From Beduinella massiliensis (lineage in GTDB: Bacteria; Bacillota; Clostridia; Christensenellales; Aristaeellaceae): a stretch of 64,000 bases of DNA. The notes under the pieces were generated by a model. The model saw only the letters and a list, made by a program, of their open reading frames with translations, did not search any database and was not told the origin of the DNA. Below are positions 18,231 to 32,613 of the stretch, one piece after another. Both the position numbers and the translations under genes were made by a program. The stretch lies in contig NZ_LT963430.1 of assembly GCF_900199405.1 (NCBI RefSeq), forward strand, positions 2,139,605 through 2,203,604, given 5' to 3'. Numbering within the stretch: position 1 is the first letter of the stretch; each line of letters begins with the position of its first letter.

Positions 18231-18289
18231 ATTTACGCAAACATCGATAGCATAGGGAACACGGGCTGGACATGAGGGAGGAATGGATC

Positions 18290-19303
18290 ATGAACATCTT
18301 GCTGACAGGTGGTGCCGGCTTCATCGGAACCCATACGTGCGTGGAACTGCTGGCCTGCGGTCATGACGTCATCATCGCGGATAACTTCTACAACAGCAGC
18401 CCTGAGGCGGTGCGCCGGGTGGAGGAAATATCCGGTCGTAAGGTTAAGCTGTACGACATCGACGTATGCGACGCAGAAAAGGTAGATGCGCTGTTCGCCG
18501 AAAACAAGATCGACGCGGTCATCCATTTTGCAGCCTATAAGGCGGTGGGCGAATCGGTCTCAAAGCCCTTGGAATACTACCGCAATAATTTGGATTGCAC
18601 GCTGACGGTATGCGAGGCCATGAAGCGCCACGGTGTGAAGCGTTTCATCTTCAGTTCCTCCGCGACAGTTTATGGAATTCCGGATCACATGCCGCTGGAT
18701 GAAACCATGCCGACGAGCTGCACCAATCCCTATGGCTGGACAAAATACATGAACGAACGCATCCTGACGGACATCGCTTTTGCCAATCCCGACTGGTCGG
18801 TCGTGCTGCTTCGTTATTTCAACCCGATCGGTGCGCATGTGAGCGGCCGCATCGGTGAAATGCCCAATGGCATTCCGAACAACCTGCTTCCGTACATCAC
18901 CCAGGTCGCCGCCGGAAAGCTCGACCACCTGAGCGTTTACGGGGACGACTACCCGACGCATGACGGCACGGGCGTGCGCGACTACATTCACGTGGTGGAT
19001 CTGGCCAAGGGCCACGTTGCGGCGGCGGCCTATGCCGAGAAGCACATGGGTGTCGAAATCATTAATTTGGGCACGGGCACGGGCTACAGCGTGCTGGACA
19101 TCGTGCGCGCATTTGAAAAGGTCAACGGCGTCAAGGTGCCTTACCAGATCGTGGCGCGTCGCCCAGGCGACATCGCGGAGTGCTGGGCCGATCCCGCGAA
19201 AGCGCGCACGCTTCTCGACTGGTCGGCCGAGAAGACGTTGGAGGATATGTGCCGCGATTCCTGGAGATGGCAAACTCAGAATCCGAACGGCTACGCGGAC
19301 TGA
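18290..19303 (+). CDS. galE: UDP-glucose 4-epimerase
   Basis: Extended short-chain dehydrogenase that interconverts UDP-glucose and UDP-galactose using bound NAD, for galactose use and envelope sugars. The 337-residue protein has TGGAGFIGTHTCVELL for NAD binding, the Ser in FSSSATVYG and the YGWTK catalytic Tyr/Lys pair. Full length. ATG 18290 has a GGGAGG site about 8 nt upstream. It is monocistronic, with its own promoter and a terminator behind it. Confidence 0.95.
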   Translation: MNILLTGGAGFIGTHTCVELLACGHDVIIADNFYNSSPEAVRRVEEISGRKVKLYDIDVCDAEKVDALFAENKIDAVIHFAAYKAVGESVSKPLEYYRNNLDCTLTVCEAMKRHGVKRFIFSSSATVYGIPDHMPLDETMPTSCTNPYGWTKYMNERILTDIAFANPDWSVVLLRYFNPIGAHVSGRIGEMPNGIPNNLLPYITQVAAGKLDHLSVYGDDYPTHDGTGVRDYIHVVDLAKGHVAAAAYAEKHMGVEIINLGTGTGYSVLDIVRAFEKVNGVKVPYQIVARRPGDIAECWADPAKARTLLDWSAEKTLEDMCRDSWRWQTQNPNGYAD

Positions 19304-19319
19304 CAGAGCGCACAACAAA

Positions 19320-19345
19320 AGCGGACGGTGCAAACCGTCCGCTTT
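19320..19345 (+). terminator. Terminator of galE (left copy of a repeated hairpin)
   Basis: Perfect 10-bp stem AGCGGACGGT / ACCGTCCGCT with a GCAA tetraloop, A-run before and short T-run after. The same hairpin recurs at 19559-19582 with two changes. Confidence 0.75.
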
Positions 19346-19582
19346 CTGGCCATCGACAAAGTCGATGGCGTCGTGCAAAATGAATAAACATTTTGCACGA
19401 ATGTCACGGGAGATGTTTTCCTCCGCAAATGCTGCGCATTTGACTACGGAAAACGCCCCGCCCGACCGGCAAAGCCGGTCGATACGATTCCACATGAAGG
19501 GGAAGTTTCTCCTTCATGTATCCTCTCTGACATTCCGTTACTTTGTTGATTCTCTGAAAGCGGGCGGTGCAAACCATCCGCT
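19320..19582. repeat. Array of seven palindromes between galE and the next gene
   Basis: In order: (1) 19320-19343, 10-bp stem, GCAA loop; (2) 19349-19369, GCCATCGAC stem with AAA loop; (3) 19371-19400, perfect 12-bp stem TCGTGCAAAATG with AATAAA loop; (4) 19415-19454, GTTTTCC / GGAAAAC enclosing CAAATGC / GCATTTG; (5) 19463-19481, CGACCGGC stem with AAA loop; (6) 19492-19519, 12-bp stem with one G-T pair and AGTT loop; (7) 19559-19582, second copy of hairpin 1 with two substitutions. There is no ORF of note. Hairpins 2-6 differ in sequence, so this is not a simple tandem repeat. Confidence 0.8.
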
Positions 19583-19587
19583 CTTTT
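19559..19587. terminator. Right copy of the repeated terminator hairpin
   Basis: AGCGGGCGGT / ACCATCCGCT (one wobble and one mismatch) with GCAA loop and CTTTT tail on the plus strand. It lies at the stop codon of the convergent minus-strand gene and may terminate it as well. Confidence 0.6.
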
Positions 19588-20459
19588 CATATGTCTTTTT
19601 CCGAATTCTTTTTAAAGGAGAGCGCCCTGTCCCTGAATTTTTTGAACGCTTCACCGTAGCGTGTCGAATTCAGGCCGGGGAACGCGTGAAAGAGGCGCCG
19701 GTCTTGGTAGCTACGCAGGGACAGCAGCTTTTGAATACGCTCCGAATGAAACGGACTGTTTTCAAATTGTGATGCAACCTGCTCCCAGATCGCCTCTGCA
19801 CGGCCCCGGAGATATTCCCTTCGCTCCTCGACTTGTCCCAGCAGGGCGTTTTTCTGCCCGTCCAACTGCGTAAGCAGCGCACTCGTCTGCGACTCGATCG
19901 ACTGCCTGTACCCGTTGAGCGCTGCCTGTATTTCTGCCAGATGGCCGTTCAGCCGCAGCACGTGGCCGGAGGTCACCGCCGTATCGACAGCCAGCAGCGC
20001 AAAAAGGCTCCCGCTGAGGGCGTATAAAAGCGTTTCGTTGATTCGGTGGACGAAGAGCGCGACCGGTGGATGAAACACCCGGAGCATCGCCACAGAAAAG
20101 GCACCGAACACCAGCGCTCCCTCCAAGCAGACGCGCCCTGAGATGTTAAAACGGCGCGCAGAGTAATCCCACCAGCGGGCGTGAAAGAGCTTTTCCATCA
20201 GATAGCTGGTGAAGTACTCAAGCGTACAGGTCAGCGCGGCGCCCGCGAGAAAGAGCAGCAGAACCGGTGCATCCTGAATGGGGGAAAGGCACATCACGAT
20301 CAGCAGCGCGCCAAACCCATAAACCGGGCAGATCGGTCCGTTCAGAAATCCACGGTTGACGATGTGCTTCCCGGCGATTGAGCAAAGCACGGATTCATAG
20401 AACCATCCGCAAAAGGAATAAAAGAAAAAATAGAGGATGTATTCTCCGAGGCTCCGCAT
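19587..20459 (-). CDS. Putative ABC-transporter permease-like membrane protein (CmpB type)
   Basis: A 290-residue membrane protein of the PF06541-like family. The N-terminal part has five or so helices with the family hallmarks YFFFYSFCGWFYES, NRGFLNGPICPVYGFGA and EYFTSYLMEKLFHARWWDYS; the C-terminal third is a soluble, charged, coiled-coil-like region. Function is not established despite the family name. I prefer the ATG at 20459, six nt after the GGGGGG site, to the ATG at 20465 that touches it. It lies about 12 nt after ygiQ and is probably in the same transcript. Confidence 0.8.
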   Translation of the reverse strand: MRSLGEYILYFFFYSFCGWFYESVLCSIAGKHIVNRGFLNGPICPVYGFGALLIVMCLSPIQDAPVLLLFLAGAALTCTLEYFTSYLMEKLFHARWWDYSARRFNISGRVCLEGALVFGAFSVAMLRVFHPPVALFVHRINETLLYALSGSLFALLAVDTAVTSGHVLRLNGHLAEIQAALNGYRQSIESQTSALLTQLDGQKNALLGQVEERREYLRGRAEAIWEQVASQFENSPFHSERIQKLLSLRSYQDRRLFHAFPGLNSTRYGEAFKKFRDRALSFKKNSEKDI

Positions 20460-20471
20460 GCGCATCCCCCC

Positions 20472-27170: not shown

Positions 27171-27203
27171 TCAGATCAGACAATGAAAGTCTTCCTTGAT
27201 TCT

Positions 27204-27291
27204 ATCGCTTCCCTACGGTAGGATTATCTACACAGGTTCAAAGGGACCGGCTTTCGCCATCTCAGCATGTTACATGCGCCCCTAGCGGCTA
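27204..27291 (-). ncRNA. TPP riboswitch (THI element)
   Basis: The minus strand carries the conserved THI-box blocks in order: GCTAGGGG, GCTGAGATGG, CCCTTTGAACCTG, TAGATAATCCTA and CGTAGGGAAGC. It precedes a terminator and the thiamine transporter gene, which fits control by thiamine pyrophosphate. Confidence 0.96.
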
Positions 27292-27305
27292 TTCAATTCG
27301 ACGTT

Positions 27306-31908: not shown

Positions 31909-32613
31909 ATGGATGATATCGAGCAAAACGTGGCGGACGTCAGGGAGAATCTTGCGCGCGCAAGCGCGGAATGGGGGAAGACGCCGGAGATCATCGCCGT
32001 CAGCAAGACGATCGAACCCGATCGCATCAATCGGGTCCGGCAGGCGGGCATCACCCAGCTCGGCGAAAATCGGGTACAGGAAATCCTGGAGAAGTACCCC
32101 TTTTTAGACGCTTCTTTTGCAATTCATCAAATTGGACAGTTGCAAACGAACAAAGTTAAATATATAATAGACAAGGTATGCATGATTCAATCCCTGGATC
32201 GTGAGAACCTGGCACAAGAGATCAACCGGCGCGCGCAGGAGACGCAAAGGCGCATGCCGGTGCTGGTGCAGGTCAATATCGGCCGCGAGCCTCAAAAGGG
32301 CGGAATGGAGATTGAAGAGGTACTGCCTTTTGTGCGCGCGTACGCGAAGCTTCCCGGCCTTTGTATCGAGGGGCTGATGGCGGTCATGCCCAACACGCGC
32401 GACGAGACAGTGCTTCGCCCGCTCTTTCGGCGGATGCGTGCGCTCTTTGAGGCGCTGCGCGGCGAAGCGATTGACGGCACGCAGATCCGGCACCTTTCGA
32501 TGGGCATGTCTTCGGACTACGAAATCGCAGCCCAGGAAGGGGCCACCATGGTTCGCGTCGGAACGGCCATCTTCGGCAAACGCACGTATCCGGCGCAGAC
32601 AAACCGAATCTGA
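31909..32613 (+). CDS. ylmE: YggS/YlmE-family pyridoxal-phosphate homeostasis protein
   Basis: Single-domain PLP-binding protein of the fold-type III group that buffers PLP and affects amino acid pools; no enzymatic activity is established. The 234-residue sequence has the PLP lysine in IIAVSKTIEPDRIN, GENRVQEILEKY, HQIGQLQTNKVKYI and the C-terminal LSMGMSSDYEIAAQEGATMVRVGTAIFG. The start is probably the ATG at 31909. It is the first of the ylm genes in this division cluster. Confidence 0.93.
   Translation: MDDIEQNVADVRENLARASAEWGKTPEIIAVSKTIEPDRINRVRQAGITQLGENRVQEILEKYPFLDASFAIHQIGQLQTNKVKYIIDKVCMIQSLDRENLAQEINRRAQETQRRMPVLVQVNIGREPQKGGMEIEEVLPFVRAYAKLPGLCIEGLMAVMPNTRDETVLRPLFRRMRALFEALRGEAIDGTQIRHLSMGMSSDYEIAAQEGATMVRVGTAIFGKRTYPAQTNRI

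Follow-up and report, generated by a model that had tools for sequence, protein, structure and literature searches.

Seven hairpins lie between convergent ORFs at positions 19318-19582 of the window, which is the whole stretch of 64,000 nucleotides of Beduinella massiliensis DNA that was analysed. They very probably represent a MITE, together with its target, moved by an IS1182-family DDE transposase whose targets are hairpins at gene ends, duplicated in full upon insertion. A sequence-only reading of the window had offered several options, among them a palindromic mobile element that had duplicated the galE terminator upon insertion. That option is borne out by the recovery of approximately 40 loci of a repeat with defined ends, by locus-specific matching flanks, by relatives in other genera and by three empty sites in related genomes. 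In addition, elements with similar ends, the transposases of which belong to the IS1182 family, are also located between duplicated hairpins.

The hairpin stretch and its copies in the genome

The element (MITE-like) occupies positions 19346-19556 of the forward strand (211 bp) and is short and non-coding, with no plausible ORF in the window copy. To its left lies a galE-like ORF of 343 amino acids (18272-19303, forward strand), taken from the ORF list and putatively galE, as named in the earlier reading; the hairpin at the end of this ORF appears to be the insertion target. The convergent ORF on the right (19587-20465, reverse strand, 292 amino acids, also from the ORF list) had matches in six of the 20 genomes searched, its own included. 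The left outer hairpin has the stem 19318-19329/19334-19345, and the palindrome runs from 19318 to 19345. The 26-nt target duplication comprises 19318-19343 and, as the right copy, 19557-19582, neither of which is assigned to a strand. Both copies agree at 24 of the 26 positions (92%), in line with the two substitutions read earlier, and the right one is followed by a T-rich run, with 6 T in the next 10 bases.

All seven hairpins claimed by the sequence-only reading could be located. Interior hairpin 1 (19349-19369, stem 19349-19357/19361-19369, AAA loop) overlaps the left end of the element and is followed by hairpin 2 (19371-19400, stem 19371-19382/19389-19400). Hairpin 3 (19407-19460) is nested, with the stems 19415-19421/19448-19454 (outer arms GTTTTCC/GGAAAAC) and 19426-19432/19436-19442 (inner arms CAAATGC/GCATTTG) and a CGGG/CCCG base. 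An AAA loop is also present in hairpin 4 (19464-19480, stem 19464-19470/19474-19480), and hairpin 5 (19493-19518) has the stem 19493-19504/19507-19518. Folding of the stretch as RNA gave z values of -12.4 for the forward and -10.7 for the reverse strand, and folding of the interior as DNA gave -8.6; none of 200 shuffles was as low in either RNA strand or in the DNA. Mechanical ORFs in other frames cross the stretch, which the earlier reading had called free of ORFs, and bear no gene-like marks.

The earlier claim that the outer hairpins are terminators was not upheld by a simple scan of positions 18900-20000, in which two terminator-like sites were called (1.3 expected), neither of them an outer hairpin. 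In a control-free count, a T- or A-rich run (6 of 10) on the outside accompanied the right duplicated hairpin in 12 of 20 cases, the left one in 7 of 20, and either of them in 16 of 20. Judged by their position at gene ends and by the T-rich runs beside many of them, the outer hairpins would be terminators.

A search with a 291-bp query against the genome of B. massiliensis (4.18 Mb, three contigs) yielded 45 matched pieces (E ≤ 4e-9), which were merged by hand into approximately 40 loci located on all three contigs and on both strands. As the longer copies match from approximately position 37 to approximately position 247 of the query, the repeat corresponds to 19346-19556 of the window and the outer hairpins fall outside it. 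Near-complete copies were found at 30 loci and are 194-379 bp long; the 10 partial ones (L027, L031, L034, L035, and L038-L043) were too short for the flank test described below. The aligned copies have imperfect terminal inverted repeats, the left one reading CTGGCCATCGACAAAGT and the right one being CAGANNATCAACAAAGT-like on the opposite strand. In the window, the left repeat is located at 19346-19362 (forward strand) and the right one at 19540-19556, where it reads CAGAGAATCAACAAAGT on the reverse strand. Searching this genome by end pattern for a complete autonomous element gave remnants only (L058 and L059). One of these, near 2970-3040 of L059 (contig C3), retains little beyond the two element ends and is apparently the result of an internal deletion. 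Approximately 60-170 bp of extra palindromic DNA (e.g., GACGTGCAGCGAGCGAAGCGAGTAGGGC...) is present at two internal places in L020, L033, L036, and L044, possibly a nested second repeat family or a longer parental form of the element.

Duplicated flanking hairpins and empty sites

For the 30 near-complete copies, the two flanks of each locus were compared with 870 mismatched pairs of flanks from different loci. Same-locus flanks beat the best mismatched pair in 19 copies and the 99th percentile in 22; 11 copies were at or below the control maximum, and eight fell below the 99th percentile. The duplicated segment in those 19 copies measures 21-39 nt, with both ends 0-3 nt from the base of the stem, while a 16-nt repeated segment at L003 scored just below the control maximum. 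In the duplicated cases, the hairpin on one side of a copy matches that on the other, but different loci have different hairpins. Unlike hairpins flank L022 and L028, and one hairpin is absent at L020 and L025; non-matching flanks of this kind could be explained by later recombination between copies or by decay.

A stem of at least 8 bp ending no more than 3 nt from the left end was present in 18 of the 30 copies of this genome and in 30 of 43 copies elsewhere, as against 28 of 691 random positions; at the right end, the same test was passed by 19 of the 30. At sites shifted by -25, -40, -60, and +40, stems of at least 8 bp were found in 6/73, 2/73, 4/73, and 1/72 cases, respectively. The high scores at shifts of +25 and +60 come from hairpins of the element itself, which these shifts reach. 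The stem test replaced a test of hairpin adjacency by minimum free energy, since the latter was passed by 42 of 43 sites but also by 429 of 617 random positions.

Relatives of the element occur outside B. massiliensis. The left-end pattern, allowing one mismatch at most, was found in eight of 200 genomes of the family, its own included, and in four of 50 genera, while the reversed pattern, used as a control, had no match in the 200 family genomes. A scan of named genomes gave at least 80 loci, many of them in uncultured Clostridia or Christensenellaceae, often from the ruminant gut, and among the matches listed there were apparent chance ones in unrelated phyla. The copies elsewhere are strongly divergent in sequence and have kept the ends and hairpin 1. 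Several of the foreign copies have a hairpin 2 containing ATGAAnnnTCAT, and the right hairpin is often followed by GCATCC; a pattern made for hairpin 5 matched seven sequences across genera. The 100 loci from other genomes yielded 54 left ends with their context, of which 43 were unique with 45 nt upstream and 24 had 200 nt downstream; exact 80-nt duplicates were removed, and one genome may occur among both the unnamed and the named loci. The flanks of 14 of these 24 testable copies, some of which are apparent chance matches in unrelated bacteria (e.g., L153 and L219), beat the 99.9th percentile of 1007 mismatched pairs, whereas only four of the 24 beat the control maximum. In all 14, the right end of the element was seen by eye to precede the right hairpin. 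L046 and L047 (G010 and G008, two other genera) share with the window element a core like GAAAAC..CCCCGCCC..ACCGGCAAAGCCGGT, embedded there in differently built palindromic stretches. The element copy at L074 (G197) is enlarged by nested palindromes containing GAAAACGGTACACTGTACCGTTTTC.

Three loci of relatives in G191, a genome of another genus, were compared with genomes of that genus, and an element-free counterpart of all three (L079, L071, and L076) was found in the sister species G013. At L079, the match of the left flank to G013:C8 reaches position 32001 and that of the right flank starts at 31973; the 29 bp common to both form a single hairpin, and G013 lacks 252 bp. For L071, the overlap of the flank matches measures 26 bp and is also one hairpin, and 251 bp are missing. 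At L076, next to a gene that is presumably Hsp20-like judging from its reading frame, G013 has one hairpin and lacks the element; the right flank is 89% identical and the left flank is not conserved. G069 also lacks the element at this site and has one hairpin of a different sequence. The right hairpin copy of L076 in G191 is the reverse complement of the left one. The empty site in G013 shows the orientation of the left copy, which makes an inversion of the loop subsequent to insertion probable, and hairpin loops may flip after duplication. Joined flanks for L071 and L079 were not found in the other three genomes searched (G069, G116, and G136). Target duplication on insertion, a trait of a MITE of the IS1182 family, is seen in 19 of the 30 copies of the own genome and, for related copies in G191, at three empty sites. 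For the window copy itself, no empty site was found via the gene to its right, which has 33-53% identity to its matches in other genomes; the duplication there is therefore supported by its two matching hairpins and by the behaviour of the family.

IS1182-family partners and the proposed mechanism

A search for the element ends in eight genomes led to L098, in which CAGACCATCGACAAAGT stands after a hairpin and before a truncated ORF. The ORF matched Pfam DUF772 and the IS1182 transposase model NF033551 (E value 1.6e-48), the latter below the cut-off because the ORF is cut short. Compared by eye and with no statistic, the left end of the window element, CTGGCCATCGACAAAGT, agrees with this IS1182 end at 15 of 17 positions and its right end, CAGAGAATCAACAAAGT, at 14 of 17, so that by this comparison the terminal inverted repeats are shared with an IS of the IS1182 family. 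A longer relative with both ends and a hairpin on both sides is present at L109 (G191, 1478 bp), and a search with its protein gave matches in 32 of 250 family genomes. Among 30 IS loci scanned, six have a whole hairpin on both sides: L111 (the L109 element), L112, L115, L119, L129, and L132. Their duplication scores were 21-32, against 12 or less elsewhere among the 30, albeit as scores without a mismatched-flank control. Different hairpins were found on the two sides of three loci (L118, L122, and L130). Two loci have other ends: L137, which is located inside a loop-less palindrome, and L134, where no duplicated hairpin is seen; the remaining loci gave no clear reading or ran off the contig edge. 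The four full-length transposases (L115, L119, L129, and L132) carry DUF772 and DDE domains and scored 410-439 bits with NF033551, for which the cut-off is 270; the broken L109 copy, at 264.6 bits, is just under it. A comparison of the IS locus L115 with 29 genomes of its genus yielded no clean empty site, the flank matches being on different contigs, and the nearest relative inspected has another hairpin at that site (L310). Beside this IS, the stretch L115 570-757 (G162) recurs at nine further places of G162 with 87-92% identity, plus a fragment, and shorter forms occur in other species; it is another dispersed repeat.

IS1182 loci on plasmids behave likewise, four of six having a duplicated hairpin, with CAG(A/G)CTG(T/C)(A/T)GACAA as ends. 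These four are located in Enterococcus faecium (L348 and L350), Cetobacterium somerae (L347), and Salinivibrio kushneri (L349). A fifth, L351, is an incomplete record outside the duplication reading, and the more distant element on a Yoonia plasmid (L352) shows no hairpin duplication. Protein identity to L132 is 47-52% for L348 and L347, and identity to L119 is 36-48% for L350 and L349; the L347 transposase is unannotated and was matched in two pieces. The plasmid elements resemble the window element in having a whole hairpin on both sides but carry a transposase gene and are not MITEs.

MITEs are usually, but not strictly, accompanied by an intact autonomous partner in the same genome. Here, the full-length partners are located in other genomes, whereas the own genome (G000) contains two broken IS1182 fragments, a decayed IS1182 piece having turned up at L108, and had no match to one transposase query lineage at E ≤ 1e-20. 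With only such fragments at hand, the copies in this genome may be immobile at present. Near one broken transposase fragment lies a tandem repeat with units like GTTTTCCCCACACGCGTGGGGGTGAACCG (L107, C3:914000-918500), which by eye looks like a CRISPR array. The early ideas of IS1202 or IS1634 as a family with long duplications were dropped once the transposase had been identified as IS1182, and a CRISPR-like repeat duplication stayed a mere idea.

Hairpin targets are known from this family. For ISCbo5 of Clostridium botulinum group III and C. novyi, all insertion sites except one were reported in 2011 to be hairpin-forming inverted repeats at gene ends, thought to be transcription stop signals (PMC3098183). 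The window element shares these targets; the accessible part of that report does not state whole-hairpin duplication and describes no MITE (PMC3098183). IS1272 and TnSha1, which are also of the IS1182 family, target hairpins without primary sequence preference, several of them confirmed terminators; both remove part of the hairpin, and IS1272 deletes or replaces the stem-loop and, according to the accessible text, leaves no target duplication, which also holds for TnSha1 (PMC4923244, PMC5678879), whereas the window family duplicates the whole hairpin. It was proposed that IS1272 joins at the 3' feet, whereby the stem-loop is lost; duplication of the entire stem-loop would result from pathway b, a hypothetical route in Fig. 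13 of the same paper (Wan et al. 2017, PMC5678879). MITEs of 160 and 169 bp, in 14 and 7 copies, were assigned to ISMac2 (IS1182) in Methanosarcina acetivorans and are likewise short non-autonomous IS1182 derivatives, but their direct repeats measure only 4 and 0 bp (PMC3852290); a 4-bp repeat is also given for the IS1182 element ISPse1 (PMC3281130). In a survey, IS1182 was over-represented between convergent genes, which fits gene ends as targets (PMC9208149). In the open literature, as far as its text was accessible, neither a report of whole-terminator duplication with empty sites nor a terminator-targeting MITE was found, which is weak evidence of absence as most subscription papers and ISfinder lie outside that scope. 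The family and the hairpin target are known; the present analysis adds the multi-hairpin MITE family and what happens to the target.

The direct repeats of IS1182 elements range from 0 to 60 bp in ISfinder-based tables, so curators may have recorded such long repeats. According to textbooks, the enzyme determines a constant length for the target duplication that a DDE transposase makes. The variable duplication of this family, which follows the hairpin, points instead to recognition of a folded target, and the hairpin would be attacked in its cruciform or single-stranded form. In the proposed mechanism, the transposase would choose, irrespective of sequence, a palindrome located where a gene ends, as a rule a terminator hairpin. 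The element would be joined at the foot of that hairpin, with the joined strands on opposite sides of the palindrome. With joints at the 5' foot on each strand, the hairpin would be left single-stranded on either side of the element. Owing to this position of the joined strands, gap repair would copy the hairpin as a whole, placing a complete hairpin on each side of the element, and the hairpin itself would set the length of the duplication (21-39 nt in the 19 clearest copies). Both joints at 5' feet would correspond to pathway b of Wan et al. 2017, hitherto a hypothesis, which becomes directly testable. This IS lineage is the candidate mover of this MITE.

If the hairpins work as terminators, one on both sides would make the insertion harmless; with a hairpin left on either side, the genes next to the element probably still have their terminator. 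Landing at gene ends and leaving a hairpin on both sides suggests a safe-site strategy. A broader proposal, to which a chance slightly better than even is given, is that this IS1182 lineage reads the shape of DNA, that its cuts fall at both feet of a terminator hairpin in extruded form, and that the fold of the target, rather than the geometry of the enzyme, programs the length of the duplication. With the whole hairpin copied, insertion beside genes would be nearly cost-free. This would have allowed gene ends to be colonised by these IS in Clostridia, Bacilli, Fusobacteriota, and Gammaproteobacteria, while multi-hairpin MITEs would have multiplied in the same way in Clostridia. In annotation, a palindrome-rich gap between two identical hairpins can serve as a signature of such insertions.

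Alternative readings and the interior fold

It is highly improbable that insertion takes place without duplication, the element either carrying a hairpin along or entering between two existing terminators of convergent genes. The window copy does lie between convergent genes, and unlike hairpins flank L022, L028, L118, L122, and L130, but the hairpins differ from locus to locus with matching sides, and the three empty sites have one hairpin rather than two, by which this reading is contradicted at those loci. The same empty sites contradict stem-loop replacement of the IS1272 type, in which the target hairpin would be removed and the flanking hairpins would arise otherwise. Although it involves the same transposase family and the same kind of target, IS1272 leaves no target duplication, while here two hairpins are seen where the element is present and one where it is absent; this replacement was rejected and is scarcely credible. 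A similarly negligible probability is given to a palindromic repeat of the REP/BIME type. Such repeats are spread by a Y1 (RAYT) transposase without target duplication. The element is short, palindromic, intergenic, and present in many copies, as they are, but terminal inverted repeats and the duplicated target set it apart, and membership of that class was rejected because of the duplication; moreover, its ends are similar to those of IS1182 elements.

A small structured RNA is an option that had also been raised before. The element could be the gene of such an RNA, spread by transposition, the RNA having a function of its own, for example as a transcription barrier in cis or in a transposition complex; this is unlikely, and it is compatible with the mobile-element reading, with which it does not compete. 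The fold was examined in an alignment (A1) of 23 of the 30 near-complete copies, L009, L019, L020, L028, L033, L036, and L044 being left out for insertions or missing parts. In these 23 copies, 94.8% of the cells are paired as against 33-48% in slid controls, a comparison in which the real structure is favoured because it was drawn from one of the copies. Nine pairs changed on both sides, compared with a mean of 4.0 in shuffles and reached by one of 500 shuffles, and the covariation score was above all 500. Further pair types, on the other hand, were not raised (27 versus 25.0 in shuffles, reached by 81 of 500). Helix 1 (hairpin 1) and helix 2 (hairpin 2) have one such both-sides pair each, helices 3-5 (hairpin 3) have five, helix 6 (hairpin 4) has none, and helix 7 (hairpin 5) has two. 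Of the 16 cells changed on both sides, nine belong to three pairs that changed together in L017, L021, and L022, so the independent covariation events are few. The interior hairpins appear to be kept, by selection or by descent.

Further points in favour of an RNA are the recurrence, seen by eye, of hairpins 1, 2, and 5 in other genera with partly different stem letters and a single promoter-like match inside the element (0.2 expected in the 1.1 kb scanned). Against it, no Rfam family was found at gathering score across the hairpin stretch, the lowest E value below that score being 0.18, far under it, and an Rfam RNA family was rejected on this ground. A structured RNA may be an added property of the element, the stems of which keep pairing with some changes on both sides. 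The earlier remark that no named family has this layout holds for Rfam, but what probably moves the element is a member of the known IS1182 family. The third option of the sequence-only reading, a transcription barrier, may be a side effect of the element. A tRNA or tmRNA identity was ruled out, none being present in the window. Elsewhere in the window, a TPP riboswitch is located at 27193-27293 on the reverse strand (73.4 bits, gathering score 54.3).
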